From Agarophyton chilense (taxonomy: Eukaryota > Rhodophyta > Florideophyceae > Gracilariales > Gracilariaceae), in assembly GCA_030374765.1 (NCBI GenBank), contig JARGXX010000099.1, forward strand, positions 2,232,001 to 2,296,000: a DNA stretch of 64,000 bases, given 5' to 3'. The translations under genes were made by a program, and so were the position numbers. How positions within the stretch are numbered: position 1 is the stretch's first letter; the number at the start of each line of letters is the position of its first letter. Below are positions 15,459 to 51,989 of the stretch, in pieces. The notes beneath the pieces were generated by a model. That model ran no database searches, was not told the DNA's origin, and saw only the letters and a program-made list of their open reading frames with translations.

Positions 15459-15546
15459 TGTGAGAGGAAGACTCTACCCGGACCTTTACTTCGAGCTCTT
15501 CTTTGCTTTCCCTAAATACTGGCTATTTCTACTGTAATGTTTGACA
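15459..15546 (-). repeat. Copia 3' LTR, 88 bp
   Basis: Identical base for base to 31359-31446. The RNase H frame ends at 15486, inside this LTR. No clear purine tract is visible next to it (the adjoining minus-strand sequence is GCATTTTTCGGA). Confidence 0.92.
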
Positions 15547-18340
15547 TCCGAAAAATGCGGCGCATCAAGATGTCGGTCATGATGATGTTGGACAGTCCCC
15601 GGTTGATGCGTCGCATTTTTGTTCGGGTTGGGGTGTACTTGGAGCAGGTCTCGTAGTTTCCTGAATCTGTCTCGGTGGAGGGGTTTCGTGAGTATGTCGG
15701 CGGTCATCTCTGCGGTTGGGATTCTGTGTAGGTCGATTGCGTTCTCTGCGATGTGGTGTTGGAGATGATGATGTCGAAGATCTATGTATTTACGTCGTTT
15801 GGTTGGAGCTTGATTCTCGGCAATCTGGATGGCTGATTGATTGTCTATAAAGTGCGGCGTGGGGTTTTCGTTCATCAGGTGTGTTGCTCGGAGGAGATTT
15901 CTAAGCCATTGCATGTGTTGGGTGGCACTGGATGCCACTATATATTCTGCCTCCGTCGTCGAGAGGGCAACGATGTTCTGTTGTTTGGAAAGCCATGATA
16001 TGGGTGTGCCGTTCACTGAGTGAAGTGTTTCTGTGATTGATCGTCGGTTGTTCTCGTTTGCGAAGTCCGCGTCGCTAAACACTGTGAGCGGGGTTCGAGT
16101 GATGTGTTTGGAATTGTATCGCAGCCCGTGGGTTTTGGTGCCCTTCAGATATCTTAGAAGCGTCTTCAATGCTTGCCAATGATGCGCTTGGGGGTGTGCC
16201 ATGTGTTTTGCCAGTCTATTGGTGGCGTAAGTAATGCCTGGGCGAGTGCTGTCTGTTATGTACCTAATTTCTCCCAAGATCTGGCGGTATCTGGCGGCTT
16301 GTTCTTCTGGTAGTGGTTCTGTTTCCGGTAGCTGATCTAACGATTTTTGATTGTTGTATGGTGTTGCAGCTTGGTTGCAGGAGCTCATTTTTGTCTGCGC
16401 AAGGAGGGCCTCGATGGCATCCGGTTGTGCTATGTGCACCGAACCATCGTCGCCGTATGTTATGGTCCAGTTTAAGAAGCGAGTGGGTCTCCCTAGTCTT
16501 TCGATTTTGTATTTCGTGAGGAGTTCTTTGTAGAGTGTGTTGATGAGATCCTGGGTTGAGGCTAGTACTAGAAAGTCGTCAATGGTGGTACTGACTAATG
16601 TGACTCCGTCTGAATTGTGGCGGGCGTAAAGGCATGGGTCGTGTTCGTAGGGTGTGAAGTTCAAGTGGATGAGAAACGACTTTAATTCGTGATTGTAATA
16701 GAATGCCGCCGGCGGGGATCCGTAGAAATTGCCCAAGAGTTGCCCATATTTGCTGTTGTGGGCGTAGCTACCGCTGAAACGTTGCATCTGCCTGACGTAG
16801 ACTGGACGGGTGTGTTGGTATTATTCATGCAAGTATGCTGATGTGATTTCGAAGTGCTCTAATGGCATGTTGTGGCGTGCGTGTAAGGCGATTAACATCC
16901 GCTGGGTGGTTCGGTCGGCGATGTAAGTGGTGATATGCTTTGGATCGAAGTGGAGGCCAGGTTTCATGAGATCGCCTCGGAGGTTGCATCTGGCTTTCCG
17001 TTGGACGATGTGCCCCTCTGCTGAACGTTTGTAACGATAAAACATCATGAGGGGGATGATAGCTTTTTTCGGTGGTGTGAATGTATTTGGGAGCCATTTG
17101 ATGCTGTTGTGTTGGTCTAAGTTGTTCAATTCACGATCATGTGCTTCTTGCCATTGCGCTGCGTCCGGATATTGTCGGGCTTGTGTCAGGTTGGCTGGGG
17201 AGGGTGTATTGATTCGGATTTCCGTGGGGAGGTGTGGTCGCGGTAGGGTCCTGGCCTTGAACGCTGATGTGGTGGTGGCTGTGGGGTCCTTGTATTTGTG
17301 GTATGGATGAAAGTCGTTGGTTCGTATGCTCTGGTATTGGTGTGTCTTGAGAATGAGTACCACGATGTGTTTGTGCAATATTGGGTACATGTACCGGACC
17401 GGATCTGCTCTTGGATTTAGTTTGCTCTTGGGGGCATATATTGGTATTGTGCCGAGCTCCCCAAAGATGAATAGTGTTTGTGGTGGTGGTGGGACCCCGT
17501 ACCATAGGTTGAATGGTGATGTGTTAATTGCGACATGATGGAGTAGATTATACTTGTACACCGTGTCGCGGGCGGCATCTTCACAGTATTCATCGGAGAG
17601 TTTGGCGGTTTGTAAGAGCGCTCGTATCGATTTCATAATTGTTCTGTTTAGCCTTTCCGCGATTGAGTTTTCTTGCGGTTGATGCGGGGTGCGGAGATGA
17701 AGTTGCACCTTGTGTTGCTGGTATATTTGTTGCATAGTTGATGATGTATACTCCTTGGCGTTGTCCGCACGGAAGTATTTCAGCGGGTGTTTCATTTTAT
17801 GGCGTATGTGATCGAGTGTTTGGCTGATGTAGGTGGGAATGTCCTTGCAGTCTTTGACGAAATGGGCAAATGTAAAGCGACTTCGCGCACAGGTGATCAG
17901 GAGTATGTGGTTGTGTCCATGCTTGGAAGTTGGTTTGATTGGTCCACAAGTGTCTGAGCTGACGTATGCTCCCACCTGATATGTGTGGCTTGTTGGTTTG
18001 TGTGGTGCGGGGGCTAGTTGGGCGTGATGACATGCACTGCAGGAGAGTTTGATGTCTGTGGGGAAGGGTGTCGGCATTGTCGGGAGTAGTCTTTGTTTGG
18101 CCGTTAGTGCTAGTTTCCATGGGTGAGCGTGATTCATGCGTATGTGCCAGTCGTGAGCCAGAAAGTGATCGTTTGACTGCTGTTTATGCTTTCTGGGGTT
18201 GGATAGGAGGTGAAGCGAGTGTGTGGTTGTTTTGAGTTGTGCAGCAGGGTTGGTGGGGGGGAGGGGGGCTGCTTGTTGCAATGAGGATGCTGGCTTGCTC
18301 GCTTTGGTTGTGGTTGGTCGTCTCTGGGCTACGGTAGATT
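15486..18340 (-). pseudogene. Copia pol: integrase, reverse transcriptase, RNase H
   Basis: The upstream frame (18281-16822) holds the pre-integrase zinc-binding region (H..H, SCSACHHA) and a rve integrase core: SSDTCGPI, then YFRADNAKEYTS, then QENSIAERLNRT. It reaches the start of the copia-type RT (FEITSAYLHE), where the usual first catalytic Asp appears as Glu. One TAA (16819-16821) interrupts it. The same frame then continues through PVYVRQ, the IDD catalytic pair (TTIDDFLVLAS) and a copia RNase H (VFSDADFAN, ALSTTEAEYI, DNQSAIQIAENQ, and a C-terminal ADILTKPL). The join to protease is out of frame at a run of ten G (18341-18350), probably a homopolymer indel. Confidence 0.88.
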
Positions 18341-19183
18341 GGGGGGGGGGTTGGTTTTGCTTGTTCCCCGTGATTTACGTGGTAATGTTCGGGCTGTGTG
18401 CGCCTGGTTTTGATCTACGAGTGTGCCCTTAACTTGGTATTGCGAGTTAATCCACGGAGCTTGTGCTAGTATTTGGGGCGGGCGGTGATGGGTGTCTATG
18501 ATGTATCCCATGTGTGGTGTGAAGGCTACTAGGCCATAATTTTTTGTGAGATAATGGACTGATAGTAGGTTTTGTTGTATGTGTTTGTTGGCCACTGCCC
18601 TGGTGTGAATGACTTTTTCAGTCTTATTGGGGATAATCTGGATCGTCCCATGATGCGTGCACATTGTCTGGGAGTTGGTGGCAGTGGTGGTCAGTGTGGG
18701 GTGTTTGAGTTTCGTCATTGCGGAAGTTGGTCGTGCGATATGGGAGGTTGTCGCGCCGCTATCGAGGATGAACGTACTTTGGGTTCCATTTCCGGATTCC
18801 GTCTCTTCCCTGTGTGAGGCATTGTACGGCATTGATGCGGAGGCTGCCCCATACTGCTGCTGATAGACTGGGGGCGGGCCATAGGCACGTGGCGGTGGTG
18901 GCGTTTGGGTGTGTGCCATCTGGGCTTGTGTTTTTGGCTGATATTTGGGATGCCTGCGATCTTGACACTCTTCGTCAGTGTGCATCGATGGGATTACGAG
19001 GCTGGTATGGAATTTGCACGGTGAGTACCCTGGGGGTAGGCGTCTTGGAGTGTATGCCGTTCTGCGATATGTGCGATACGGGCGGCGGAATTGGTTTCTG
19101 CTCCTGGCGTAGTAGTCCCCGGTGCTTCTTCGGGGCCCGTAGTCCCCGGGGAACGTTTTGGGTGCAGAAGATTGGGAAGTGGG
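18329..19183 (-). pseudogene. Copia gag C-terminus, zinc knuckle and protease
   Basis: The open frame has a variant zinc knuckle (CKFHTSLVIPS, then MHTDEEC, of the CKFH..H....C type common in copia gag). A Pro/Gln-rich linker follows and then an aspartic protease with FILDSGATTSHI. Reading on to 19183 stays open and is Arg/Tyr-rich, then breaks exactly at the gypsy LTR. It is the continuation of the gag half at 30543-31150. Confidence 0.85.
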
Positions 19184-20002
19184 TGTAGGACAATGCCCCC
19201 AAGGGGGAAAACCTACGAAGACGTCCGGATCTTCCTCTCACGAGGTAACCGGCGCGGTAGAGCCCTCCCAGGGATCGGCGCGCAATGCCGGGTGTAAGCC
19301 GGAGCCGAACCGTCGCGACGGGCGCAGGGAGGCTGAAAGAAGCCGAGAATATCCGCCGAAGCGGTGCTTGCGTATCCTCTGAGGAGGCAAAACCCACGAG
19401 AGTGGCGAGCACGACAGGTGTCAGTGCGAGCCGCAAGAGCGGGGATTGCCCAATGAAGGGGAGGAAAAGGGAAGGAAAATGGGAACGGAGGCAAAAGGGC
19501 GAGGTTGACCACGAGCCGCAAGAGGGGGCTCGGGAATAGCCGGCACTGCCGGGTGTAGCAAACCGTATACACGGGCGGAACCACGAAAGTGGGAATAGAT
19601 ACCCAACACACGAAGGCTGCTTGAACGTCCAAGGGGGTTGGGAAGCCGTGCACCACAGGAAATCCCTCCGTAAGGAGTTGTATATCCGCGCAGGCGGTAC
19701 GACCCAGAGCCAGGATCTGGAAGACCAAGATCACCCTTGTTGGGGAGACTTTACTGGACCGGCAGCCGCGAGGCCGCCGGCCTAAGAACTGTAGTCACCG
19801 TAGAATAGAATAAATAAAGTCTATCCTAAATAGCCAAATGTCCGTCTAACAAAGGGACCAATCTGGCGGCCACGTGTATGGCACCCGGTTTCCGGCCATC
19901 GCCGTGAAAACGGATTACTCCTACTCATAACGAGGTTGCACGCCGGAGGCTCCGGAAAAAACTTAAGTCCCCAAAAACCTCCCTGGAGGACGTTGCTCTT
20001 CA
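19184..20002 (-). repeat. Gypsy 3' LTR, 819 bp
   Basis: Begins TGTAGGACAATGCC and ends GTTGCTCTTCA on the plus strand (TG..CA on both strands). It lacks 45 bp found in the other LTR between about 19870 and 19900, in the CACGTGTATGGCACCCGGT region. Confidence 0.94.
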
Positions 20003-20016
20003 TATCCCCCCCTTAA
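20003..20016 (-). other. Gypsy polypurine tract
   Basis: On the minus strand AAGGGGGGG followed by ATA abuts the start of the 3' LTR. This is the expected position and composition of the plus-strand primer. Confidence 0.7.
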
Positions 20017-20048
20017 GACAGGGCGAACACCTCGAAGAGGAAGTCGGC

Positions 20049-21825
20049 ATGGCAGCTCGTCATGATAAGAGCGCGTCCGACACCGGGTCTCCGGAAACCA
20101 ACACACCTTCACCAAGGATCCCACGCACGCTCTTCGCATCCGATTCCAACCACAGCACACCAACACGCACCATGTCCAACCCCGACCGTCATAACACATC
20201 CGCGACTCCCGCCCTTGGCGGTTCCACCGGCTTCCGGTCCGCGCCCCACCCTGGGGATGTTACCAACCTCGCGTACGATGACCACCGTATTGGCGTCCAC
20301 TTTCGCGGACAGGCGGACCCACCGCAGTGGCCGACCTACGACGCCCTTGTGGGTGCAAATCCGAGAACATCGGCATGGCTCCGCGATGTTGCGGTATGCG
20401 CCTTGGTTTCACCCATTAGCTGTCCGCGACGAGGATTTGATCCAATCCTACACCGATAATTCGGAGATGCTCCCGGGCGACCTGCCCGGCGTGGTGACCA
20501 TGTCCTGGGATTGGCGTAATCGCATCGCCATCCCGGTACACCACATACTCCGCCGACGCAGTGAATCCTCTGCGGAGGCTCAGGCCGCGCTTGTGCGGAT
20601 CGCTTATCTCAGGCACCATCGGGCGCCTTTCGAGTTCCGGATACCCCCAAAGGTCGAATTCGACGTCCACCTTTACCGCACTCGCGGGAAAATGTCGTAC
20701 TGTGACCGTCTTAACGGATTGGAAACCCTCGCTTGGAGGGGCACATTGATCGCTCGGCAAGAAGCCCTTTGCTGGGCACGACCGATTCTTCGGGCAGAGT
20801 TCCGCTACCAACCGCGGCAGTCGCGCTCGAACTTCCTTCAGAACTTCATCCGCGATGAGCGGCGTTGGCGGGCGCGGACCGGGTATTTCGTACCGTACTA
20901 GAACACGGAGATTGAGCGCATCGCGCCTGCTCACCGACGTGGTCGGTATGTCAGTCTCCCAGACTGGTGGTCCTCCTTGGAGGCGTGCTGGGGTTGCTTC
21001 ATTGAGCTGCCTCCAGTCTTCACCTATGTAGGGTCGTCGTTCTTGAACGATCCCCAGTCGGGGTGGTGGTCCGTCGTGGTAAGCGAATGGGCCGTCCGCA
21101 CTGCGGCTTTTATCCTCGCTGAGGCGTACGACAAATACCGATTGTGGTACGTGCCACCGCGTGTGCGGGCTGCGATCCGTCGTTTGGACATGCGCATCCC
21201 CCTCGGGGGCGAGGCGAACGAAGAAGAGATGCTGGGCCTCCTCGACTTTGTGGAGGGGGTCCAGTGGGATGAGGTCCCGCTGGAGAACTCCCAACGCATT
21301 CAACCGCGTCGCGGGTCTGGCCCCGGATTCGGGAGGAATACCGCGCTAGCGGGGGATTTCATCTACTTCGACCCCTGGGATTACCACGAGATCAGCCACG
21401 AGGAAGTGGAAGCCAACCGGCATGCGCCGCGTGAAGTCCCGGCCGACCACCCGCGAGGGTATGTCGACTCGAGCGACTATTACCGCGACTATGCGGATGG
21501 TGACCCGATGGTCGACAACGAACCGGAGAATCCGGGTTACGCTCCGATGGAGGCTGACGAGTCCGGCGAGGCCGGTGAGGAGTCCGTTGAATACGGTGGT
21601 GCGGCTCCATCCGGGGCTGCTGATGCCGTGCGAACGGATTCCTATCCGACTCCATCGGTGGCGGGCCCGCCCGCAACCGCCGCTGGCGCGGAGCGGGGCG
21701 AGGTCATCGCGCGCTTCCTTTGGGAGGTGGGGCTTCGCCCTTCCGAGATCTCGGGTGATGTGGCCGCCATGCGGGATGCCTTAGCCAACCGCCTGGGCGG
21801 GGGTCCACCTCGTGCGGAGGAATGA
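20049..21825 (+). CDS. Antisense accessory reading frame of the gypsy element
   Basis: The frame starts at an ATG 46 bp from the 3' LTR and runs on the plus strand, opposite to gag-pol. It is open to about 20390, changes phase once (a one-base indel near ATGTTGCGGTATGCGCC), and continues to a TAG at 20899-20901. It then stays open in the same phase to 21825, giving about 590 codons with two lesions. The N-terminal 120 residues are Ser/Thr/Pro-rich. The middle is globular-looking and Arg/Trp-rich (MSWDWRNRIAIPVHHILRRR, FEFRIPPKVEFDVHLYR). The C-terminus is acidic and Tyr-rich (YYRDYADGDPMVDNEPENPG). I recognise no domain. Opposite-strand genes in this position are known from plant Ty3/gypsy elements of the Tat/Grande group. 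A competing 295-codon minus-strand frame (21303-20416) exists, but its composition is less protein-like. Confidence 0.6.
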
Positions 21826-22158
21826 CCGGAGCTTCCGGTAGAATGTAGGGCGGCGCCACTAGGGCGCCCTTGCCAGTAGTAAGAAATAAAAAGAAGAGGG
21901 TCGCCTTTCCGACGCCCTTTCCCAAGTCCGCTTCTTTCTTTCCGGAGTACCGGCCTTCTACCGGGGTTCCGGCGTTTCAGGGAGCCAGCCTAGCTGGGAG
22001 TTCCGTGTTTCACGGTGGGCGCTTCGCGCGCGGACCAGGTAACTGGCAAGACCACCAAAGACGTTGGGATAGCGTGAGCGGTTGCTTCCTTCCCCGCGTT
22101 GGGGCATGGACGGAGATGGCGCGTGGCGCAATCAGCCATTCCATTCCGTGTTCACGGT

Positions 22159-25100
22159 TTATCCCTCTCGGGCGTTTACCAGCGTGGCTGGGAGTGCAGT
22201 CCCCGCAAGGCGGTGGTATCGCATTACCGCAGAGCGCGGGAGGTGCTCGATGGGCTCCGGAGTGTCCCACTCCGGCCCGTATCCGTACCAGCGGGTCCGG
22301 TACTGGAGCACCCCGTGCCCATCGTAGCTATGTCCGACGATTCGGTCGAGGACGTACTCCTGCACGTAAAATTGCCGGCCTTGCCGGGTGGTGGTGACCC
22401 GAGCCTCAGCGCCGCGTGGTGCTGGGCTCGTCGTCGCCTATTCCGGGTCACCCGGTCTGTCATTCTGCTCTGCGGTTGTTGCCGGGTTGCCGGGGCTGCC
22501 GTACCGCTTCGAGGAAGTTGCCGGCGCGGCCGGGTTGTGTTTCCGCTGGGCGGTAGGGGCTTTCCTGAAGTCCGCCCTTACCGCGAGTTTGCGGGGGTCC
22601 TTCCGTCTTGGTGACGGTTCGCTGGAGGCCTCCGCTTGATTTGCGGCATGCAACGTTCCCATTGGTAAGCAGTTTCCGCTGTGCGGTGCGCCGTGGGCGG
22701 TGAGTGGTTCACCGTCCCGGCGATCCGCTTCCGCGGGGTGGCTGTCAGCCAATGACCGGGATGCCGGGTGCCCATTGGTCCGATCTCCCGCCCGGGTCAC
22801 GTGACATTGAGGACGGGTGGTCGGGCCGTCGCGGACGGTTGGCTCCGATTGTTCGGCAAGGGAGGCGGTTTTCGACTTGTCGTTGCGCCTCTTTTCCTCC
22901 ACGGGGTTCGTACCGTTCTCAACGGAGTGGCTCGCTAGACCTGCTTGCGCAGCGCCCGCCGGAGTACCGGTATCGACCGAAACGCTCGGTGTGCGACCGC
23001 GAATGTGCGGGGAGCCCTTAGTTGCTTCCACGCGATGCGGAGCGTCCGTAGGGTCTCGCTTCCCGGCTTCGGGTCTTCGAGCGCCTTGGTTTCCCTTGCG
23101 GGGTTGCGTGGCGGTCGGATTGACCACCGCGTCCCGCGGGAGCGGAGTGGCGTCCGGCGACGATGCCGGATGCCCGCTCGGGGGCCTTGCCCGGGGTGTC
23201 CGCTTAAACTTCCGTTGCGACGGCGATGCTTCCGCGATTGAGCGGGTCCCCTCCCCCTCCTTAGACGGAGCGACGGGTGATGGTGGGCTAACTGCATGGT
23301 GGGTATAAATACCGCTGCGCAGCGCCCGTAAGGGTAGCTGGCCGCGAGGGCCAGGTGTTTCTGGCATTGCCGGTGGTTCCGATAAAGTCGGTATATCGGA
23401 GAGACCCCGTGAGGGGTGCGGTACCACGGCGGGGCGTGGTGCCACCGTTGTACCCGTGGTATCCGAGGCCGTTTCGACGGGGGCTGATGCGTTTTCCGCC
23501 TGCGGCGGTGGGGCGGCTACGATGCGGTCTTGTGAAAGACGTTCGTGGTCGCCGTTCTTGTCCACCACAACGGTGCCGGGGAGGGAGGACACGACCCGGA
23601 ACGGACCTTCGGCGACAGGCGAGAGCTTGTGACGCTTGTTGGTCCGGGGGTTGTAGTACTCCCGGCGAACGAACACGTAGGTTCCCGGCTTGGGCGGTGC
23701 CGGTAGTGGTCCGCGTAAGCGGTTATCAAAATCCCGCTTATAGGTGGCCTGGGCACGTTCCATGGACTTCCGGGCGACCGGTACGAGCTTGGTAAGCCAG
23801 TTCTTCCACTTGAGGCGGTATTGCCCCACGGATGGGAAAGAGGTGACCCTGTGTTGGGGTTCGACCGCCACTGGCGGGGGTGTCCTGGAGAGCACAAGCT
23901 CGAAGGGAGTCAGACCGGTTGTCCGGTGAACCTGCGTGTTGTAGGCGTAGGTGATAGCATCAGAATAAATGTCCCACGTCATTGGGTGATCGGATACGTA
24001 GGAGCGTAGCGACGCGAGTAGGGTGCGGTTGAAGCGTTCCACCTGCCCGTTTGTTTGCGGGTGGTAGGTGGTAGTAAACAGGTTCTTGACGTCGAGGAGG
24101 CGGCAGACGTCCAGAAAGAACTTAGAGGCAAACTGCTTACCGTTATCGGATAGAAACTCTATCGGAGGGCCATAAACGAACGCCCAGTGCGTAACGAAGG
24201 CGTTCGCAACCGTGAAAGTGGTGATCTTCCGTAAAGGTACGGTGCGCACCAGGTTCGAAAAGCGGTCAGTGATAACCAGGAGGAACTTGTTTCCCTTGTG
24301 CGTCTTGAGTATAGGCCCGATAATGTCGATTGCGACAAACTCGAGGGGCGCCCTTGCGGGGAAAAGCTTCATCCGTTTGGAGTGCTTCCGGAGTTTCACC
24401 CGGTTCTTTGCGCATTGGGTGCAGAACTGCACCGTAGCGTAGCAATCAAACGCCATAGCGGGTCAATAAAAGTCCCTTCGCAGGGTTAGATAAGGTTTTC
24501 TCCCACCGGAGTGTCCCCCGAGGGTCGGGTAGTGTGGGAGGTGGAGCACCCTGGTTTGCAGGGTGTGCGGGACGACGATCTGGGATCGGTGGTCCACCGT
24601 CCGGACGAGGTAACCGATGTCGTTTACCTCGAACGGGAGGTCCTCTCCACCGTTTAGGCGGGCCCGTATGCGCGTGCAGAACGGGTCGCCGAACTGTTCT
24701 CGGATCATCTCCTCGGTGGAGATGGGTACAAAGGTCCCGGGTACGGGTGTTTCATTCTCGCGCGCTGCGAGTAGCTCATCCATTTCCATGGTGTCTTCCC
24801 CGGTTTCGGGCCAATCCGACCCCGTCGGTGTTTCCCCTTCCAAGGTAAAGCACGGGATCTCGTCGACCTCCGGGTCGGCAAGTGCTTCACCTGTCGTAGG
24901 TAATCGAGAGAGGGCGTCTGCTTGGGTGTTCTGGACACCCTTTTTGTAGACGACCTCGAAGTTGAATTCCGCTAAGCGGAGGCGCCACCGCATTAGGCGG
25001 TCAGAAGGATCTGCAATGTTCAGCAGCCACCTCAACGAGGCATGGTCCGTTTACACGGTGAAATGAACGCCCATGAGGTATGGGCGCAGAGTGGATAGCG

Positions 25101-27438
25101 CCCAGACCACTGCGAGGCACTCCTTCTCGGAGACCGAGTAGTTGCGCTCGTGGACGTTCAGCGTGCGGGACCAATAGCCAATTGGTTTGCGTTCCCCCTC
25201 GGGGGTGGTTTGGAACAGTGCGCAGCCCACCTGGTGGTCACTGGCGTCGGTGTCGATGGAGTAGGGAAGCCCAGGTTTGGGCAAGGATAGGATGGGAGCT
25301 GTCGTAACTGCCTTAATCAAGGAGCGAAAAGATTCCGACTGATCGGTGGTAAATGGCGCAACCTTCGGTGGCTGGCCCTTCCGCAGTAGCGCGTTTAGCG
25401 GAGCGGCGATATCCGAGAAACGCGGTATAAACCGTCGATAGACGTTGACCAGACCTAAAAAGGATCGGAGCTCCGTTTTAGTACGGGGCTCCTTCGCCTC
25501 GCAGAGGGACTTGATACGAACTTGTTCGATCATTTAACCGTCCTGGACGGATGACGTGCCCGAGATACTTCACCGTGTCGGTGAAGAACTCGCACTTCCT
25601 CAACTTTAAGGTTATTCCTGCGTCTCGCAGTACGGTCATCACGTCCCGCACGTGGGTCAGGTGATCGTCCAGGTTTCTGGAAAAGACAATGATGTCGTCC
25701 AAGTAGAGAAGGCACGTGCGCCACTTGAAACGCGACATCAGTATGTCTATTGCCCTTTGAAAGGTGGCCGGTGCATTGGTTAAACCAAACGGCATCCGCT
25801 TGAAACGGTAGGAACCCGAGTGGCAAACAAATGCGGTTTTGTCTCGGTCCTCTTCCCGGACTGGGACTTGCCAGTAGCCCCAGTTAGCATCCAGAGCCAT
25901 AGACACGGTAGCGTCTCAGAGCGAGCCTATACACTCGTCCATGCGCTGAATCGGGTAGGTGTCCCTCACGGTGACGGCATTGAGGCGGCGGTAGTAAATG
26001 CAAAACCGCCACGTACCGTCAGCCTTGAGGGCCAGCACCACCGGTGAAGCCCAAGGAGATTGGGCGGGCTCGATGACTCCAACACGGAGCATCTTGTCCA
26101 CCTGAAATTCTTCCTCCTCCCGAGCTTTCGGTCCCGCCCTGTAAGGGGGTTGTGCAACCGGACGTGCGTCCGGTAGCAAGTCTATCCGATGTTCGGTTGT
26201 ATTGATCTCACCCAGTGAGCCGTCCCACATTGTGGTAAACTCGCGTAGCATTCTGCGTAAGCGGTCCCGGTGTGAGACCGGTACATGACTCAGGTCCAGG
26301 TCCTCGAGGGCCTTGATCGGGTATATCTTATCGTAGCTCGTAGGCTGTGCCCTGTTGTCAGGTGTGGGAACCGACGAGGTCGGAAATGCATCCGTCTTGA
26401 CGGTTTTATCGAGCGCCAACTGCTGTGCCTCCCCGGAGGTTTCTGCACCGGATACCGGGAGACCATCCTCGGTAGAGGGAGTTATTCCGAGTCCTTCGGC
26501 AGCCGTCACATTTGTAGGGAGCATCGCGAGCGGGTGCGGCGTCACAGACCCAATGACTTGGTTCTTTGCCAGCGTCTGGGGAGCCTTTCCCAGATTGGCA
26601 ACCAACACCCTGAAAGGGGAATTCGGCGTGACTTGCACGATTCCGTTCGCAACGGTTAACTGAAATTTCTCGTACAACGAGGGCAAGGGCTGAACAACCC
26701 GAAGACCGTGTTAACGGGAATTGACTGAAACCATAACCTGGCTCTCCGGGGGTATGGTGACTGACGAGGCAACGCGTAGCTTCGTAGAATCCCGGTTCGC
26801 CGGTGTGGGTTCCTGCGCAGCAGGTAGAGGAACGTGTTTCCTCGATGCCCGCTTCAGCGGTTGACGAACAATGGGGACGTTTGATCCGTCCTCAAGCTCC
26901 ACCTGCTTAAGGCGTGGGCGGATGGCGTCGACGAACCTGTCGCAGTAGTCACATCCCAGTATAACTGGCGTGGCCAGCGAGCGGCACAAAATAAAAGTTA
27001 GTTTAACCACCATCCGCCCTAGCCTGACGACCAGGTCGATCACACCAACCGTTTTCAACGGGTTGTTATTGGCGTCTGAGACGTCGGGTACCGTTTCAGA
27101 ACGGATGAGTGACCGCAATGGCGGGGGTAAAACCGATTCCACAATAAAGTTCGGCCCAGCACCTGTATCCAGGACAGTGAGATATCTCACCATAAACTGC
27201 GTGTGCAGACCAAGGTCAGCGTAAACCTTGTAGTTACGCTTGGCCATTACCAAGACTCTATCCGGGATCCGGTTATTTCTAATCCGTATCCATGGTCGAC
27301 GCAAAACACCGAGGTGTTTAGAGTCCGCGTCTGCGGTGTCCTTCCTTGTCAGGATTTTCACCGGGGAGCGAGGCATCGGCGCCTCGGGCGTCGTCAGCCT
27401 CAACTCTGAGGACGCCTCTCCCGAAGGGGAGACTCCCT
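22159..27438 (-). pseudogene. Gypsy pol: protease, RT, RNase H, integrase, chromodomain
   Basis: After the gag frameshift site the frame reads the protease (VLDTGAGPNFI), a TAA (26711-26713) and RT up to DECIGSL. A TGA (25916-25918) sits where Gly is usual. The RT core follows (MPFGLTNAPATFQ, LLYLDDIIVFSR). An extra A near 25534 shifts phase at RPGRL. RNase H follows (IDTDASDHQVGCALFQ), with a TAA at 25051-25053 before TDHASLRWLL. Then come the HHCC finger, a TGA (24463-24465) replacing Trp in FYWP, and an integrase with intact D, D, E (AIDIIGP, LSDNGKQF, QVERFNRT) and a GPF-type C-terminal module. About 330 residues of Pro/Arg/Thr/Ser-rich sequence lead to a TAG (22438-22440). In the same frame lies a chromodomain (EYVLDRIVGHSYDG, YRTRWYGYGPEWDTPEPIEHL), ending at 22159. 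Confidence 0.92.
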
Positions 27439-27451
27439 CTATTCTTTTCCC
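27408..27451 (-). promoter_or_regulatory. Probable -1 ribosomal frameshift signal between gag and pol
   Basis: On the minus strand the last gag codons are CAG GGA AAA GAA TAG, giving the heptamer G GGA AAA (27451-27445) in the X XXY YYZ register of -1 slippage. Five bases later a hairpin can form: GAGG pairs with CCTC outside, and TCTCCC-CTTC-GGGAGA forms the perfect inner stem (27439-27408). The pol frame is exactly the -1 frame and is open across the overlap. Slippery site, spacer and stem are all where the known mechanism needs them. Function is inferred. Confidence 0.65.
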
Positions 27452-29550
27452 TGTACAGGGTCCTGGTCGGGCGAAGGCCCGACTTCCTCGGCAACGAGTG
27501 CATGATTCCGTTGCACGGTAGCTACCGCAGGAGCGGGTTGAGATCCACCAGCGTGGTTTGGCGCTGGTGCGGCGCGTGCCGGCTGAGCCGGTTTGTACCG
27601 AGAATTCGGAGTGTGAGCCAATGCGTTGGGGAAGTCCGTCTTCGCGCGGAGATATGACGTGAGTGGCACGGAGCCCTTCTCCTGCGGGGAGAGGGCTTCG
27701 TAATTATCCACCACTCGCGCCATATCGCGTAGCGATAAAAGGCATTGCGGGGAGGTGTGCCCGCGCTCGTAGCACAAGTGGCACACCAACGTCACTCCCG
27801 CCTTTCGCGGTACAGCATTCCGAGCATCGGTGTATCTTTCGGGTTCCGGGTTTCCAACCCATTCAGGGCGCTGACTTCGTGTCATTCCGTTCGAGTACGG
27901 CATACGGGGGGCCAGCGTGCGGCGGTCATTAAGATAGAAGACCTGCCCGTTCTCCGTGTCCCTTGCGGTTGAGTCAACCGAGCCATCCGTCGTAGACGGT
28001 AATTCCGTTGTCGGAATAGATAAATCAACGTGATGGATGACATTCATATTGTCATAACCCTGTTTGGGGATGCCATCCGTCGCAAATGACAGTGAAGAAG
28101 AGTCCGACTCAAGCAGCAATGCCTTAGCGGCCTTCGACCGGGTTCCCGGATTGCGTGCACGTAGTGCATCTCCCTCTGCGCGGGCAAACTGTACGAGTTC
28201 AAGGTAGGTCACCTTCGGCTCTTGTTCCCTGTAACGGGCGACAAGAGTCTTGATGGCTGGATCCAAACAATCAATGAACATCGTACAGCGTTCCCCAGCG
28301 GGGTATACATTACCACAACGGTGGAAAGCCTTATTCAGGCGTACCGAGTAATCGGTCTCGAGCTTGCCGGAGCGTTGTCGAGTGTCTCGCAAAGCGAGTA
28401 TCGCCGCTTGTATCGCGGAGTTGGTTGCGTAGGAACGCAGGAGGTACTGCACGGCCTCGGGACAGCAGGTCACACCTCCTTTGGAGGCTCGCGACGAGCC
28501 CCGGACCGACAAAAACTGATCTTCAGCGACACCCCGTAGAAAGTAGGGTAGCGCCACGTAGGCTTGTCCTTCGTTCATTCCGAGTATATCGGCTTCTGTT
28601 ACAAAGCGGTGTAGGAAATCCAAGACCAGAATTGGATCATCCCCAGTAAACGACTGGTTACGAAGTGAAAGCTGCATCCGCTTGATGCAGTCTTTCACTT
28701 TACCCTTGTCACGCGGTGTCCGACCTAAAGAGGAATCTTCTAGCCGGTAATACCGGTAGGACAGGAGTGTCCTGTACAGAGGGTTGGTGGGCTTCAAGGG
28801 TTTGAGGCCCGGATGTCGCCGACCCTTAAGGCGCGACCGGATGGCCCCGTAGGTGGCAGAGGACCGCTTTGAGCGGGAAGAGCGCCCATAACGATCCTGT
28901 GGGTCATCGCTCACCGACGAGTTGGAACTCTCCGAGTCACTCGGTTTACCGTCCGACTCAGATGATGAGTCGGACGGGTGTCCGTGCTTACGGTTAGAAT
29001 CCCGGTTCTTCCGGCTCTTCCGGTTCCGCGACTGGGTCTCTCGATGAGAGACAACCGGTCTAGCCGCGTTCGCGGGCGAGGTTAACGTCCTCTCGACCGA
29101 CTCAAGTCGGCTTCGGAAACGCTCGAAGCGATTCTCCATACTTTCTGCGAAGGAAGACGGAGCGCCAAAACACTCGAGTAGTGTATTGACGTCCGACCGC
29201 AATACGCGGATATCCTCGGCTAACTCACTTGGAGGGGGGTTAGCGAGGCTTCTTCGTAAAGAGGTGAACTCCCTCGAGAGGGTATTGTGAGCAGCCCGCA
29301 GGGAGCAGAGCTGCTCTTCCAAGCGTACAATCCGCGCTTGGTCGACCAACCGCGGAGGCGGAGAAACCACCGTTGCGACGGTCGTTAACCCGGAATCGGG
29401 CTGCGGTTCTTCAGTGCCGGTGACCGGTATCTCCCGGGAAGCCGGTGTTGGAGCCAGGGCCTGTGGAACATCAGTGCCCCTGGCATCACCGCTTTGGCGG
29501 GAACGGCTGCGTGTTGCAGGACGCTCCATGCTAGGCGGTTTCCTTGGCAT
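27439..29550 (-). CDS. Gypsy Gag polyprotein, 703 aa, intact
   Basis: The only undamaged gene of the element. The first ATG is at 29550 (MPRKPPSMERPATRSRSR). A predicted coiled coil (residues about 70-170), an Arg/Ser-rich low-complexity block and then the capsid-like region follow (LVLDFLHRFVTEADILGMNE, ALPYFLRGVAEDQFL). A CCHC zinc knuckle (CHLCYERGHTSPQC) lies at about residue 580, and a Pro/Ala tail runs into the frameshift site. The order capsid then knuckle is the standard gag layout; the long charged N-terminal extension is larger than in most Ty3/gypsy gags. It ends three codons after the slippery site. Confidence 0.9.
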   Translation of the reverse strand: MPRKPPSMERPATRSRSRQSGDARGTDVPQALAPTPASREIPVTGTEEPQPDSGLTTVATVVSPPPRLVDQARIVRLEEQLCSLRAAHNTLSREFTSLRRSLANPPPSELAEDIRVLRSDVNTLLECFGAPSSFAESMENRFERFRSRLESVERTLTSPANAARPVVSHRETQSRNRKSRKNRDSNRKHGHPSDSSSESDGKPSDSESSNSSVSDDPQDRYGRSSRSKRSSATYGAIRSRLKGRRHPGLKPLKPTNPLYRTLLSYRYYRLEDSSLGRTPRDKGKVKDCIKRMQLSLRNQSFTGDDPILVLDFLHRFVTEADILGMNEGQAYVALPYFLRGVAEDQFLSVRGSSRASKGGVTCCPEAVQYLLRSYATNSAIQAAILALRDTRQRSGKLETDYSVRLNKAFHRCGNVYPAGERCTMFIDCLDPAIKTLVARYREQEPKVTYLELVQFARAEGDALRARNPGTRSKAAKALLLESDSSSLSFATDGIPKQGYDNMNVIHHVDLSIPTTELPSTTDGSVDSTARDTENGQVFYLNDRRTLAPRMPYSNGMTRSQRPEWVGNPEPERYTDARNAVPRKAGVTLVCHLCYERGHTSPQCLLSLRDMARVVDNYEALSPQEKGSVPLTSYLRAKTDFPNALAHTPNSRYKPAQPARAAPAPNHAGGSQPAPAVATVQRNHALVAEEVGPSPDQDPVQGKE

Positions 29551-29652
29551 TGGCCACACCGTCTCGACGGAAGAATAGAAAGCAAACCGGTGAGACCAGA
29601 GAAAACCCGTTAAACGGAAAACAACCTCAGAGAGGACACAAGCGGTCTTGAC

Positions 29653-29670
29653 TTCTAAGTCGGGAGACCA
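29653..29670 (-). other. Gypsy primer-binding site
   Basis: Three bases from the 5' LTR, the minus strand reads TGGTCTCCCGACTTAG, so the plus strand ends in ...CGGGAGACCA like the 3' end of a tRNA with CCA. I do not assign the tRNA species. Confidence 0.6.
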
Positions 29671-29673
29671 ATT

Positions 29674-30537
29674 TGTAGGACAATGCCCCCAAGGGGGAAA
29701 ACCTACGAAGACGTCCGGATCTTCCTCTCACGAGGTAACCGGCGCGGTAGAGCCCTCCCAGGGATCGGCGCGCAATGCCGGGTGTAAGCCGGAGCCGAAC
29801 CGTCGCGACGGGCGCAGGGAGGCTGAAAGAAGCCGAGAATATCCGCCGAAGCGGTGCTTGCGTATCCTCTGAGGAGGCAAAACCCACGAGAGTGGCGAGC
29901 ACGACAGGTGTCAGTGCGAGCCGCAAGAGCGGGAATTGCCCAATGAAGGGGAGGAAAAGGGAAGGAAAATGGGAACGGAGGCAAAAGGGCGAGGTTGACC
30001 ACGAGCCGCAAGAGGGGACTCGGGAATAGCTGGCACTGCCGGGTGTAGCAAACCGTATACACGGGCGGAACCACGAAAGTGGGAATAGATACCCAACACA
30101 CGAAGGCTGCTTGAACGTTCAAGGGGTTTGGGAAGCCGTGCACCACGGGAAATCCCTCCGTAAGGAGTTGTATATCCGCGCAGGCGGTTCGACCTAGTGC
30201 CAAGATCTGGAAGACCAAGATCATTCTTGTTGGGGAGACTTTACTGGACCGGCGGCCGCGAGACCGGCGGCCTAAGTACTGTAGTCACCGTAGAATAGAA
30301 TAAATAAAGTCTATCCTGAATTGCTAAATGTCCGTCTAACAAAGGGGCCAATCTGGCGGCCATGTGTCGCACGGGCGCTGCGGCCACGTGTATGGCACCC
30401 GGTCCCGCCGGTGCATCGCCGGCGTTCCGGCCATCGCCGTGAAAACGGATTACTCCTACTCATAACGAGGTTGCACGCCGGAGGCTCCGGAAAAAACTTA
30501 AGTCCCCAAAAACCTCCCTGGAGGACGTTGCTCTTCA
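29674..30537 (-). repeat. Gypsy 5' LTR, 864 bp
   Basis: Same ends as the other copy. The extra 45 bp fall in two blocks around 30362-30425, a GC-rich area where CACGTGTATGGCACCCGG is embedded in near-repeats. Whether this is a gain here or a loss in the other LTR cannot be told from one element. Confidence 0.94.
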
Positions 30538-30542
30538 GTGGG

Positions 30543-31150
30543 GGCGTGCGAGGGTTGATACAATGAATGAAGTTGTTTGAAGCTGATGAGAAAAGATTTG
30601 ATCGTGGTTGGTTTTTGTAACAAGATGGATGCAATGATAGGAGTGAGGGCTGTGTTCGTTTTGAGTCCGTTGATTATGAAGTCGACAGTTGTCTCTTCTT
30701 GTTTGATGTTGGGATAGCGTGCCGCTATCATTCTCTGTCGAAAGTCGGTGTGAGCTTTGATGTAATTGTCAATGGTGGTGTCCTGAGTGTAAGTGATACT
30801 TTCGGCTTCGGTTCTCAAGAACTTGTGGTCTTCTTTCGTAGCTTGGTCGATGTGAGATATAATGTCGGTGACGAGGTCGCGTGGTGTCAGTCAATCTTCC
30901 GGAACTAGTAAGAGTCCGAGGATGTCGGATGGTACGCTGCTCAGTATGGCGGAGAGTAATTTGGACTTGTTCTGTGTGTGTCGCCTGAGATCCGCTGGAT
31001 CTGTTGGAAGAGAAGGATTGCTGAAAAGATGTTTTGTGGCGTCGATTGTTGTTGCGTACGTTTCAAGAGCGAGATACCATGGTGCATAATTGGCTTTGTG
31101 TAGTTCTGGGAGCCTGGGTTGTCTTTCGTGCTCCAGTGTGTAATGTTATG
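30543..31150 (-). pseudogene. Copia gag N-terminal part
   Basis: The minus-strand frame shows the copia gag (UBN2-type) pattern: ANYAPWYLALETY, then LLSAILSSVPSDIL, then DYIKAHTDFRQRM-like (here NYIKAHTDFRQRMIAARYP) and VDFIINGLK. In-frame stops occur at about 30892-30894 (TGA, after LLVPED) and near 31145 (TAA). It ends at the gypsy insertion. Subtracting 11,359 bases (gypsy plus one GTGGG) puts this frame in exact phase with the gag/protease frame below 19183. Confidence 0.8.
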
Positions 31151-31330
31151 TTGTGTCTTTGTGTTGATGTGTGTCGTTTGCTTCTTGTGTGGCGTTCCTG
31201 TATAGTTTGTTGATGTGTTCTGCGTGCTGCCGTCTTTGACGGCGGAGGAGTCGGGGATCTGGAGAAATTGTGTTGCGTTGTATGGTATGCGGGTTTGTTA
31301 TGTGTGTGAGATTTAGGGGTGTGTGGGTTT

Positions 31331-31358
31331 GCCGCAGCGGGTGCGTGGGCGCATAACC
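31331..31358 (-). other. Copia primer-binding site, half initiator-tRNA-Met type
   Basis: Directly against the 5' LTR the plus strand reads GGGCGCATAACC, closely matching the anticodon region of eukaryotic initiator tRNA-Met (GGGCYCATAACC). The match continues leftwards over the D-arm (GCAGCGG). Drosophila copia is known to prime from the 5' half of this tRNA, cut in the anticodon loop, and not from the 3' CCA end. The layout here, abutting the LTR with no TGG, is the same. Confidence 0.7.
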
Positions 31359-31446
31359 TGTGAGAGGAAGACTCTACCCGGACCTTTACTTCGAGCTCTT
31401 CTTTGCTTTCCCTAAATACTGGCTATTTCTACTGTAATGTTTGACA
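31359..31446 (-). repeat. Copia 5' LTR, 88 bp
   Basis: Exact copy of 15459-15546. On the minus strand it starts TGTCAAACATTACAG and ends CTCACA. It is very short for an LTR, so zero differences over 88 bp say little about age. Confidence 0.92.
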
Positions 31447-32830
31447 TGGATCACGGGAATACTCCATGATTGGTTACAAAACTAGCGAATCTTTCTGAAA
31501 GTTTGCAGCCATATAGTTTTGTGTTGTAGATATCGCTTTGAGACCAGAGACTGCAAAAAACAACTTTTTTGTTTTTTGGTTAAAACATTGGAAACAATAT
31601 CGGAAGTATGTAGGATTGGTTTATTATAAAAGTGGAGATGATGCTGCAAATACATATGGGTTGCGCTTTAGGATTGGTTGCTCAGAAATGGGGGTGAGCT
31701 GGATCGGACTTGTTTTTTTGTCAAGTTGCTCGGATGTCATTGTGTGTGGTAGTTTAGAAATCCACAGCTTCAAACTAAAGATTGAAAATCGTTGTCAATA
31801 AATCTAATTCTGTCGATACATTTCTTAAAATGCTAAGCGTTTCAGTTCGAGCCTAGCGAGGTGTCATTGAAGTCAAAAGAGAGGAAATGGCCAAAAGAAC
31901 TACATATACTTGTTTAGGTCTGTGCTGTTGACGTTTCATGTCCCTAAAAAATATCTATTGCACAGTAGGAAGCATTACAGTTTACCTGTAGTATTTGTCT
32001 GTTGAGTCGAAAGAACAGGAAAAAGTCTTAATCTCTCGCCCTAGCTAGAAATGTTTCAATGTCTTCAGGGAGCATCACACTACAACGGCACTCATGGAAC
32101 ACGGTTTGAAAGTCATTGCAATGTGGTATTTGCAAGAGAGTACGTGGGGGCTGACGAAGCTCGAAGAGTTGTGTTTCGTTTTATGAGAAATATAGCGGTA
32201 CAACATCCGAAATATGCTCATGTCTACAGTATGACGAAGCCATTGATAAGTGTAGTGGACGAAATTTGTACAGACTCTGCCCGTTACGGAACACAAATAT
32301 CTTTTGTGGAGCTATATGTGATGATCACGTTCAGCGTAACAGTCATTTCGTGGGGTCGTTGTGATAAAAACCTTTTTCTCCTTGGGGGCCCTCTGTAAGT
32401 AGTGAATTGCAGCACTCCAGGCAGGCAGATTTAGGTGGCAGGCTGGAATGCTGAATTCTTCCCAGGTGTAGGTCTATAATTAGTTTTTGTGCACTCTGTT
32501 GCCATTTAAAAAGAAATATAGCACAATAATTGAAAACCCTGCAGGAACGGTGCTATATCTCGCGATGGCACGTACCGCAACCCTGCGCCCAACCCTTGCT
32601 GTCAATCGCAGTTTTAGTTGCTGGTTGCCGTGCGTCTTCGCACACGCCCACCTCCCAGATGTCGACAGAGCCAGTGACGCACCATTTTTGCCGACGTGGA
32701 GGGCTTGCGCTGTCGACATCTGCTACGCGCGTCAACGCTTTCTTAAGCGCTTCGCTTTAGGCCGCACCACCCTTGAATCCCACCACCTCCTCGCGAATTC
32801 AACGGCTGCTGTCGACTGCGCTCCACCACC
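31447..32830. other. Intergenic, weak frames only
   Basis: Holds a plus-strand frame of 87 codons (31538-31801) and one of 115 codons (32051-32398), neither with a recognised domain. The last 300 bases should hold the promoter and 5' leader of the secreted-protein gene; the ATG at 32831 has a good context (CCACCACCATGAG). Confidence 0.45.
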
Positions 32831-45927: not shown

Positions 45928-47519
45928 TGCAAGGTAGATATTTCGGAAACCTGATCAACTCTTTAGTTACCAGTCGTGGCAGGGAATGGAGAAGAATTGG
46001 TGCAGATTGGGGCGATAATTTAACCAGCATGCGAGCTGTGCTTTAAGAACAATAAAGGCTCAAAGTTTATCTTCGTGACACGGAGAAGACCCGGGAATGC
46101 ATCAAATTCTTTACATCATATTCGCCGATCATCTTTCAGTTTCAGTGCATAACCGGTTGATGAAAAACATCACCCTTTTTTAGGGGTGAAATCGGTCTCA
46201 GTGTAGGGTGAGATCACCCCCACTCTCACACAGGTCTAAAAACGAGGAAACTCAGTTCGCTGCGGGGATTGTTAACGCTGTACCCTTCGTACATACGTCT
46301 GGCGCCTGGTTCATATGCCTTTTCGCGAAGCAACGGGAGCGTTCTCTTGTCCCGGCACTTGACCGCGACTCTTTCGGCACGCTCTTTGGCGGACGCTCCT
46401 TCTTTCGCCGCAGAATTTTTTGTAAAACAATCTTTTTAGTTTTCTTATGCCTTTCCCAATGACGTGGGAGCACTATCGTCTTGTAGCTTAAATGTCGATT
46501 AAGAACAAAATCTTGTGACGGCAATGCACTGCTATTGACAGATTTGCAATTCCGGCTGAGAGTGCAACTTTGATGGATGACTCATTTGCGAAGTTAAATT
46601 CCTTTTATAACCAGTTAAGGCATTGAAACAGGAGTGAAACCACTGACGAAGTCTTTGCAATATCTCGAGATGGGAAGTCATTGCCTGAATGACTCTGGCG
46701 ACTTAAAAATATTTTTGGGAACACCCAAATTGCAAAACGGAGCAGGACAAGAACGTTTTGTACGCAAGAGCACTATACACGACAGTGTTGCATGGAGTTG
46801 TTTCAAACCATTTCAATTCACCGCCGTGATAAAGACGTGTGTTTTCATGGCGACAAGCTCCCCGCATGGGTTTGGGCCATTTCGCTCCAATGAAATTCCC
46901 CTGCAGACAATCATTCGCGAAACCTGCCATTGGGTTGTATTTGTTGTTATATCAGTTACCACTAGCACTCCATTTATCCGAGACCGAGACATGAAGCTAC
47001 AAAAGACCATGAAATGTATTGCCGGAATAAACGGAGAGATCAATCTCAAAGGTGATGTACGGAGGTAGAGCTGTGACGGGTGGTTGCTACACAAATTGAA
47101 GTTTTTTATTTGGGCGATTGCAGCTCTTGCGGATGTTGATCTTGATTTCAGCGCTGTTCTCGCTTGCCACTATTGCGCTGCACTTCCACGGACCAACAGC
47201 GCCTCGAACTGCTGCGCGTCTGCCCGGCGGCCAAGCACGGTCAAGTGGTAAACTTTGACGCCGCTCCATCTTCGGTACAGTCTTACGGCCTACAAACCTG
47301 TACCCGAAACCTCTTTTTCTGACAGGTTTCCTGCTGTCATTCATTTCTCCAACTATGCCCATGCATGCTGATTGAGCGTCTCACCTGCTGTCACTCGAGT
47401 TGCCTACTCAGACGTCCACAACTCCGCCCACCGCACGTTGACCGTATGCTATTGAATCTCACACACCATAACAAGACAACCTTCTGTTCCTCACAGCTCC
47501 GACCACCAGCATTGAAAAT
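45928..47519. other. Intergenic, weak frames only
   Basis: The longest gap in the gene-dense half. Frames of 80-144 codons occur on both strands (46208-46462, 46634-47068 and 47087-47362) with no domain, signal peptide or recognisable homologue. It must hold the promoters of the JmjC gene (left) and the FANCI-like gene (right). Confidence 0.4.
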
Positions 47520-50500
47520 ATGGCTTCGCCGGATACGGCAGATGTTATCGGTAACGTGGTTCGCACATTTGAATCCGATGCGTCCACCGACGCCGTCGAG
47601 TCCCTTCTCAGGTCCATGCAATCTACCACCATTACATTGATTATTGGATCTATTCGCAACCCTCCGTCTCATATTTCTCCTATCAGGCTTCTGCGCGCTC
47701 TATGGAGTGTTTCTACGCTCAGACCAACCATTCTCACAAACCTGTCTGAGGCAATGTCCCCAAAATTCACTCAAGTTGATGCATCTTTGCTTGAAGAAGT
47801 CGATTTTCTTTTGGTGGCAGATGCGAGAAATTCGAACCGGTCGCATGAAAGGAGACTAAAAGACATTTCCTTGTGCGCTTCATCTATTGCAAAACAGTCA
47901 AAGGAAGTTTATTCACCCGTTTACGGACCACTTCTTGTTTATTGTGCTCGTGCTGCCAGCATGGTAAGTACACTACAAGCACGAGATGTTCGCACCAAGA
48001 TTCTTCAGTTTTTGCTTATATCTATGTGTGATGATGAAAACATTGCCGTGCAGGCGGTCATTGCTCTGCTGGAAAATGAGCTGGGCATCGCCGATGAAGA
48101 AGAAAAGGTCATGATGAACATAATATTGCGTTTTGTTTCCACCAACTGTTTAGATGGTGATCTCCCAGATGTCCTGCGTGCCATTTTGTTCAGTCTAACC
48201 AAAACAAACAGCAGCCATAAGACCTACGTTCTTAGCTGGCTTGTATTTGTCATCATCCGAAGAGCCACTGGAGATGTTCTTGGTGAGGTAATCAATGTCG
48301 TCGACGTAATGGTTTTAGATAGCGAGGTCGTTTGTGACAGAATAGCCACAGCTTTTTGGAGCATCATCACCTACTCAAGTCGTGAAGGACATTCTTCTCA
48401 AAAGCGTTTTCGTTTTAGCCCATCCCATATCGCTGTGTTGTATTGCATTCTTAGCGACGCCTCTACGGAGGCACAACAGGAGTACCTGTATCATATATTG
48501 GAGAGAATACTGTTAGATCCTTCAGTTTCATTCGACATTTCAACCGCTGCGTCGTCATCTGCTTCAGCCGGAGATGTGGAATTTCGGAGAAAGGCCACTT
48601 TTGTCGAGAGCATCAAAATTCCTGGTGTACAGAACAGATCTCAAACCATTGTGGAATTCTATGAAAATCTTCTATGGAAGTCCAAGAAGTTACAAGATTG
48701 GGGCTCTATGATGCTTTTGGAATTATTTGCATGGGTAGCGGAAAGCCGGCGAAGCATACTCAACAATATCTTCGGAACTATTGTACAGACAGAAGCAACA
48801 GATGATGTTGTTAATGCTTTCTGTACCTTGTACGAGAGAATCACTATCACTCCTCGGTCTGCATTTGCACTTCGTGATTGTCAAGGAGTATTGAAAGAAG
48901 CTCTGGAGCTTGTTTCTCTCCTCCCAGCCCCGTATGATTATCGTGTTTTGAAGGCATCTGTACCAATATTTGTAACATGCCCTAATCTAACTGACTTTAT
49001 GCTAATGTACCTACGAAAGGCTTCTGGTTCCAGATCCCGGAAGTTCCAGATTATTGCGTGCACTGGGCTACTAACTATTTTGGAGCAGGATTTCATTTCA
49101 AAAGAAACCGCAGAAGCATGCTGTGCAACATTGAAGCTTATGATGCAAACGAGTGACAATACCGTCAAGTCCTATTTGATCACATATGTTCTCAAGTTTC
49201 TGAGGAGAAAACCACGGCACGCTGGAAGAATTTCCGATTTGAGTGCATTGCTCATGAAACAATTCATGGTTGTGTTGGAAAGGCCTGATGGATCCTCGAA
49301 AGAGAAGGATTGTACTAATCCAATCGATTGTAGTTCAGGAAGACCACATATCTCCCTGAATTTGGCGAATTGTTTCGGCGAAATCTATGGCGAATACATA
49401 TTAAGAGAACCAGTTTCTTTGTTGGCAAAATTCTGTTTTACCTTTTCAGCTAGAGAAGAGAGAATGGACAAGTACATGAAACTTTACATTACGTACTTGG
49501 GAAACCCCAGCGGGGCCCTTTCGGATGCTTGCCTGGTTTCAACATCAAAAGCCCCCATACTTCCAAGAGTGAAGACACTCAGTGAACAGTTTGACGTACT
49601 GTTTGGAACAGGAAGTGTAGCCGTGGGCTTAAGTCATTGTCTGGCGTACGGACTATGTCTGATTATAAGAGATCACTTGGACGGAAGGTCTCCATCGGGT
49701 AAAAGCAACGATGAACGCTCAAAACGAAATTTAGGTCAACCGCCGCAGTTTGCTTCGATGACGGCCCGCGAGGCTGCCTCGAAGTTGCACAGTTACACAT
49801 TGCAGTCCATGTTAACGGAGAGTATTACTTTTCGCGAAAGATTAGAAGCCCTTAAGATCACAGCGAGGATCCAAGATAATGACGAGGTAACGGTTTTTCT
49901 CAAGAAGAAAATTTGCTCCGAAGTTCTTCGAAGACTACAGCTTGACTTAAAAGCAGATCTTCTGGGTGACAGAGAAAGACTTCCAAAAGAGAAAGACGTT
50001 CAAGACATGGTGTTGGTTCTATGCTCGTTGTATTGCGCTAATTGTCCATGGCTAATGCAGCGGGACTCCGAAACAGGTCAAGAAAATATTCCAGATGTAC
50101 GAAGACAAACCGATACAGCAATTTGTTCCACCAACTCTGGATCAAGTGAAGGCGAACAAGACCCACATCGGGTTACTTCATCAATTGTATTCCAGAAGCT
50201 TTTGTCACATTCTCATCTTTCTAATGATATTCGAAGTGTTCTGGAACCGCGGCAATTACTGGTTCTCGGTCCTTCGTTGAGCATAGCTGTCCGCCACTCA
50301 GTATTGAGTATTTTAATCACCTTGTATTCGTATGGATGTCTGAAGAATGAAATGAAAGTATTTGTACAATTATTGCGACCAGTAGCCATAAAGGGTGACA
50401 AGACTTTGAAAGAAGGGCAAAGCGACAAATCCTCCTTGGCTCATCAAAAGGAAGACTTGTCCAATGATGAAATGTCTGCTTCGGTAGAAGACGTTGTTCA

Positions 50501-51920: not shown

Positions 51921-51989
51921 TATTGCTATTCCCTTTGTGCTAAACAAGACATGTTCATTTGGCTCACAGAAAATTTGTAATACGAGTCC

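Follow-up and report, generated by a model that had tools for sequence, protein, structure and literature searches.

A candidate antisense accessory gene beside the 3' long terminal repeat of related Ty3/gypsy elements in the red alga Agarophyton chilense

The question raised by this locus is whether a long open frame lying opposite pol inside a retrotransposon is a gene and, if so, what its product might do for the element. The window, a 64,000-nucleotide stretch of Agarophyton chilense contig JARGXX010000099.1, contains a complete minus-strand Ty3/gypsy element (19184–30537). On the opposite, plus strand, in the gap that separates pol from the 3' long terminal repeat (LTR), lies a frame with its ATG at 20049, a stop codon ending at 21825 and a conserved core at about 20400–21290. 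In the window copy the frame shifts once, near 20370, and is interrupted by a single in-frame stop (20899–20901); unbroken copies contain 591 codons and start at the same ATG. An earlier examination of the letters alone, here called the sequence-only reading, had given these coordinates, strand and damage, a length of about 590 codons and a place inside a minus-strand gypsy element before its 3' LTR, all of which were found as described. Its proposal that the frame is an antisense accessory gene that decayed along with pol is supported by the open copies, the constraint on the plus frame and the homologues in sister families reported below. The codon pattern between families, together with the contrast between frames in the ratio of nonsynonymous to synonymous differences (pN/pS) within the window element's family, indicates that the frame is almost certainly a protein-coding gene under purifying selection. 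The fuller reading takes it as a true accessory gene, antisense to pol, that belongs to a group of related red algal Ty3/gypsy elements and whose product regulates the life cycle of the element; this was given a probability of roughly 0.6.

The collection of further copies, which the sequence-only reading had proposed as a check, was carried out in the same genome using a DNA search (best 40 of 382 candidates scored) and a protein search (best 74 of 1901). All copy samples were taken best-scoring first and are hence biased toward good copies. No stop was present inside the match in 49 of the 74 copies from the protein search, and the unbroken 591-codon frame was found in 21 of the 30 distinct copies, window copy included, that were obtained from 40 fetched stretches carrying the gene (L001–L040). 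The opposite (minus) frame had been put at 295 codons; its length is 309 codons in the window and, for most of the fetched copies, 411. Openness of the frame across copies was rejected as stand-alone evidence, as the copies are of recent origin and were listed by descending score.

The constraint on the frame was measured between families, where A is the family of the window element and B, C, D, E and F are other families of the same genome. Across the six pairs formed by A, B, D and E (244–246 codons) the plus-frame amino acids were 44–59% identical, with 63–78% identity at second codon positions and 34–41% at third positions, and the amino acids of the opposite frame were 21–33% identical. 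For the core, comparison of A with B gave a pN of 0.385 and a pS of 0.72 in the plus frame, with silent sites near saturation, and a pN of 0.47 and a pS of 0.44 in the opposite frame. The silent sites of the reverse transcriptase (RT) piece were saturated too, with a pN of 0.12–0.13 (91 codons, against three B copies), and the accessory protein therefore changes about 3 to 4 times faster than RT.

Within family A, using all 30 distinct copies with the broken ones included, the plus frame gave a pN/pS of 0.58 (95% interval 0.47–0.73) over the whole gene and 0.37 (0.27–0.51) over the core. The corresponding minus-frame values were 0.93 (0.73–1.22) and 0.84 (0.58–1.27), shifted frames gave core values of 0.84 or more, and pol gave 0.72 (0.59–0.90), with 6 of 20 copies comparable over the whole piece. 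Five unbroken B copies gave 0.47 for the plus frame and 1.04 for the opposite frame. The sequence-only reading had named stronger constraint on the plus frame than on the minus frame as a check, and this was observed within A, within B and in the six family pairs, the minus-frame pN/pS being near 1 in A and B. Where the two frames overlap, variants common to at least three copies fell at plus third positions in 20 of 35 cases (p 0.003), and their ratio of nonsynonymous to silent changes was 16:19 compared to 182:91 for single variants (p 0.023). A McDonald–Kreitman-like comparison of shared with single variants gave p 0.037 for the whole gene and p 0.55 for the minus frame.

Homologues in sister families were sought first through RT, for which the best 150 of 3134 candidates were scored and 20 reverse transcriptases taken. 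Nineteen belonged to family B (identity 80–84% with the longer and 66–75% with the shorter RT piece of the window) and one to family C (37% identical). The sequence downstream of RT was examined in two B copies and one C copy; both B copies contained a homologous antisense frame at the equivalent position, with 42% identity across 389 residues (E 7e-80 and 2e-78), and the single C copy had no such homologous frame in the 6.2 kb downstream of RT. A search with a 408-residue B piece gave 69 matches without a stop in the piece among the best 102 of 1651 candidates. Degenerate patterns built to avoid the codons of A and B were matched at 29 and 113 places, compared to 0 for a reversed control; two of the 29 were mutated A copies by their place, and three of the 29 were fetched as families D, E and F. 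The D gene was 40% identical to A and 44% to B, the E gene 51% to A over 394 residues and 39% to B, and the broken F gene 40% to A over 167 residues and 42% to B over 192. In family E an integrase 66% identical to that of A lies downstream on the opposite strand. The 2.5 kb following the D copy and the 2.2 kb stretch fetched for F gave no match to pol. The E search (best 107 of 1710 candidates) gave 26 matches without a stop, 83–92% identical apart from the query. In the D search 19 matches of at least 70% identity stood ahead of the B matches, and only the query itself was without a stop. D and E are thus older, decayed families, and the gene has therefore passed through bursts of different age. 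It is opposite pol in three families (A, B and E), between pol and the 3' LTR in A and B (the B edge being placed by likeness) and opposite integrase in E, and is kept across many copies and sister families in these best-first lists. The homologous antisense genes of B and E bear out the proposal of an accessory gene.

Non-autonomous family A derivatives, which have lost enzyme domains, were identified among 20 copies (L021–L040) that were picked by their antisense gene and compared with the window; two could not be typed. Six contained pol through to 26322. Nine lacked 23436–24732, the segment coding for the zinc and catalytic domains of integrase, with one shared breakpoint pair (23435/24733), and one of these (L021) carried a second deletion too. 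Three lacked about 23273–26811, from RT to integrase, and had 0.9 kb of other sequence there instead. The deleted copy L036 has RT, RNase H and a chromodomain match within one open frame. The antisense frame was unbroken in 6/6 full-length, 7/9 integrase-deleted and 3/3 RT-to-integrase-deleted copies, with core pN/pS values of 0.34, 0.32 and 0.29, respectively. The full-length copy L037 was nearer to some deleted copies than those were to each other, which makes recombination between copies likely, so that some of the constraint could be older than the deletions. The antisense protein could tentatively be regarded as a selfish accessory factor serving mainly the copy that encodes it, a possibility we consider doubtful. 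If true, retention of this protein by elements that depend on enzymes supplied by others would indicate that it acts in cis as a regulator, or against silencing, and belongs to a new protein family. Two other features of the deleted copies were observed. Two of the three RT-to-integrase-deleted copies (L022 and L025) look chimeric, their identity to the window in the stretch that follows being only about 81.5%. At C68:3138181–3158347 three identical antisense genes (L012–L014) are spaced 9,197 bases apart, as in a head-to-tail element array, a spacing consistent with the integrase-deleted form, the window value being 10,490.

The predicted protein has about 590–620 residues. Its conserved part is a core of about 300 residues rich in Arg and Trp, flanked by an N-terminus and an acidic tail that both vary. 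The family A core has an isoelectric point (pI) of 6.4 and contains 14 Trp and 35 Arg in 298 residues. The acidic, Tyr-rich tail described by the sequence-only reading holds for A (pI 4.5, 34 acidic residues and 9 Tyr in 178) and less well for B (pI 4.3, 18 acidic residues and 6 Tyr in 181). The usual hydropathy cut-off for a membrane span is 1.6; the maximum 19-residue mean was 1.17 in A and 1.06 in B, giving no membrane span, and the protein is predicted to be soluble. No usable match was obtained for the protein in Pfam, PHROGs, NCBIfam or PDB, or for the A plus B alignment in Pfam or PDB, the best chance matches being DUF3905 (E 0.17 in 2/12 members) and WW (E 3.7 in 1/12). Pattern searches of IMG/VR and GTDB contigs gave 37 and 38 matches, of which none was confirmed as a relative. 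The earlier remark that the product belongs to no recognised family stands for these databases and for the viral and prokaryote contigs.

The ATG lies 46 bases inward of the 3' LTR edge in family A and about 81 bases inward in one family B copy (edge placed by likeness), and the gene points toward pol. The messenger would thus begin in the 3' LTR or the short adjoining stretch, separate from the sense RNA, from a putative antisense promoter, and would then be translated. No TATA box of the form sought was present within 330 bases upstream of the ATG in nine family A copies, and a TATATATA run stands directly before the ATG in one family B copy. The protein may act as a regulator of the life cycle of its own element; a nuclear factor for transcription, nuclear entry or escape from silencing would be one example. 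This role, which we rate at about even odds, is suggested as the most likely one by analogy with gene23 of Grande, described in PMC7264820 as having its own promoter and a nuclear product.

Several points weigh against an accessory gene with a regulatory product. The regulatory role rests on analogy, and structure models of two window pieces, folded without an alignment, were meaningless (predicted local distance difference test score 37). The significance of the McDonald–Kreitman-like test is modest; two-copy variants (30:16) resemble single ones, shared variants outside the overlap have no silent excess (10:4), and single variants also lean slightly to third positions (108/273, p 0.018). The core contrast in B is weaker, at 0.55 compared to 0.89 in five copies, and the whole-gene bootstrap intervals of the plus and minus frames within A, which ignore shared ancestry, just touch.

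The rival that survives best, although unlikely, is a captured gene of the host or of another mobile element, with relatives surviving outside gypsy elements. Further multicopy families carry the motif according to the degenerate patterns (29 and 113 matches versus 0 for the control), and the D and F stretches lacked a pol match. However, the D and F copies are decayed, making loss of pol an easy reading, and no single-copy host relative was seen, although only the best copies were scored and one could be hidden. In addition, each of A, B and E carries the gene opposite pol, and A and E stand closest to one another both by the gene (51%) and by integrase (66%). This agrees with the gene having descended with the element, at least from their ancestor onward; capture may have occurred before that ancestor. 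An envelope-like protein or other structural part of the particle is quite improbable. The place agrees, as PMC7264820 puts retroviral env between pol and the 3' LTR too, but the gene runs on the other strand and the hydropathy maxima given above are too low for a membrane span. A soluble structural part may still be considered. That the antisense RNA alone matters, for example by partnering the sense RNA in silencing, with the protein incidental, is a possibility named for antisense transcripts of LTR elements in PMC7264820; it is very improbable here, as conservation of amino acids while silent sites are nearly saturated is not expected from an RNA function. Least probable, and in our view refuted, is a frame kept open by chance composition or by constraint on the minus frame: in most fetched copies the minus frame stays open for 411 codons, and as protein it matches family B (24% over 322 residues, E 4e-17), but the plus translation matches B far better (42%, E 7e-80), plus third positions are nearly free and second positions held in 6/6 family pairs, the minus-frame pN/pS is near 1 in A and B, the shifted frames offer no constrained third frame, and the opposite strand is open for only 171–180 codons in two B copies.

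The remaining parts of the window element are those of a Ty3/gypsy retrotransposon, with the order RT, RNase H and integrase, LTRs and a polypurine tract. All lie on the minus strand. Of the 807 bases aligned between the 3' LTR (19184–20002) and the 5' LTR (29674–30537), in blocks of 694 bases (97.0% identical) and 113 bases (100%), 21 differ; the LTRs also differ in length, and the distance is 0.026. The polypurine tract (20003–20017) adjoins the 3' LTR on the side of the plus-strand gene's ATG, and a candidate primer-binding-like site, with a presumed fit to a tRNA end, stands next to the 5' LTR (29657–29670). The element is flanked by the target site duplication GTGGG at 19179–19183 and 30538–30542. 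The pol pieces comprise RT (PF00078, 25481–25915) and integrase (PF00665) with a proline-rich tail (22441–24462). The chromodomain that the sequence-only reading had placed beside the gene corresponds only to a weak C-terminal PF00385 match below cut-off (E 0.0003–0.009) in 4/4 scanned family A pol frames reaching the C-terminus. Transfer by offset from copy L023 puts its expected place at about 22215–22355, beyond the window's own integrase frame, in which no match was found; one B and one E pol frame scanned gave none either. Of the 15 phycobilisome matches in the genome (79.8 Mb, 135 contigs), 14 fall on a single contig. The red-type plastid genes of the host and the weak chromodomain match ending pol make it plausible that the family A element is a red algal chromovirus, as had been suggested, although this falls short of proof.

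Three further observations were made. On contig C39 phycobilisome matches of the same score repeat about 185.7 kb apart, as if a plastid contig overran its own start. A minus-strand copia element (window 15459–31447; RVT_2, rve and Pol_BBD matches), with identical terminal repeats only 89 bases long at 15459 and 31359, is apparently split by the gypsy insertion. Both strands of the region 47472–63957 carry long open frames, four in all, with lengths of 1007 to 1482 codons.

Antisense genes beside the 3' LTR have been described mainly from flowering plants, without a settled function. PMC7264820 and PMC11963269 describe aORF-3R of the plant Tat-lineage elements (Grande gene23, RIRE2 and Retand), of unknown function, and the algal gene resembles it in being antisense between pol and the 3' LTR and in being present in many copies and sister families. 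One difference is that the TRP28 domain (PF04195), given in PMC11963269 for 97% of Retand clusters, was absent from all 12 members of A and B that were scanned with E allowed up to 10, a setting at which HMMER filters still drop most weak matches. A second is that Retand is described there as a non-chromovirus lineage, whereas the family A pol ends in a weak chromodomain match and the host is a red alga. Outside plants, brtn of the Boty-like elements of Botrytis is likewise an additional antisense gene of a gypsy element, named in PMC7264820 and in a title cited by PMC8365987; its host is a fungus, and the likeness is by description, not by protein. The antisense gene HBZ of HTLV-1, with a 3' LTR promoter according to PMC7264820 and PMC11963269, may be similar at most in its working, and kinship is not claimed. 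In the titles and abstract openings found by full-text searches of open-licence literature, a scope outside which Repbase and subscription papers fall, no antisense accessory gene was named in red algal elements. An unrelated protein in so distant a lineage would suggest repeated origin and a general need of LTR elements, and families of differing age, with full-length and enzyme-deleted copies in one compact genome, make that need comparable. Antisense genes at this place are thus already known from plant Tat elements and a fungal element, and what is new is the red algal lineage and a protein that matches nothing known.
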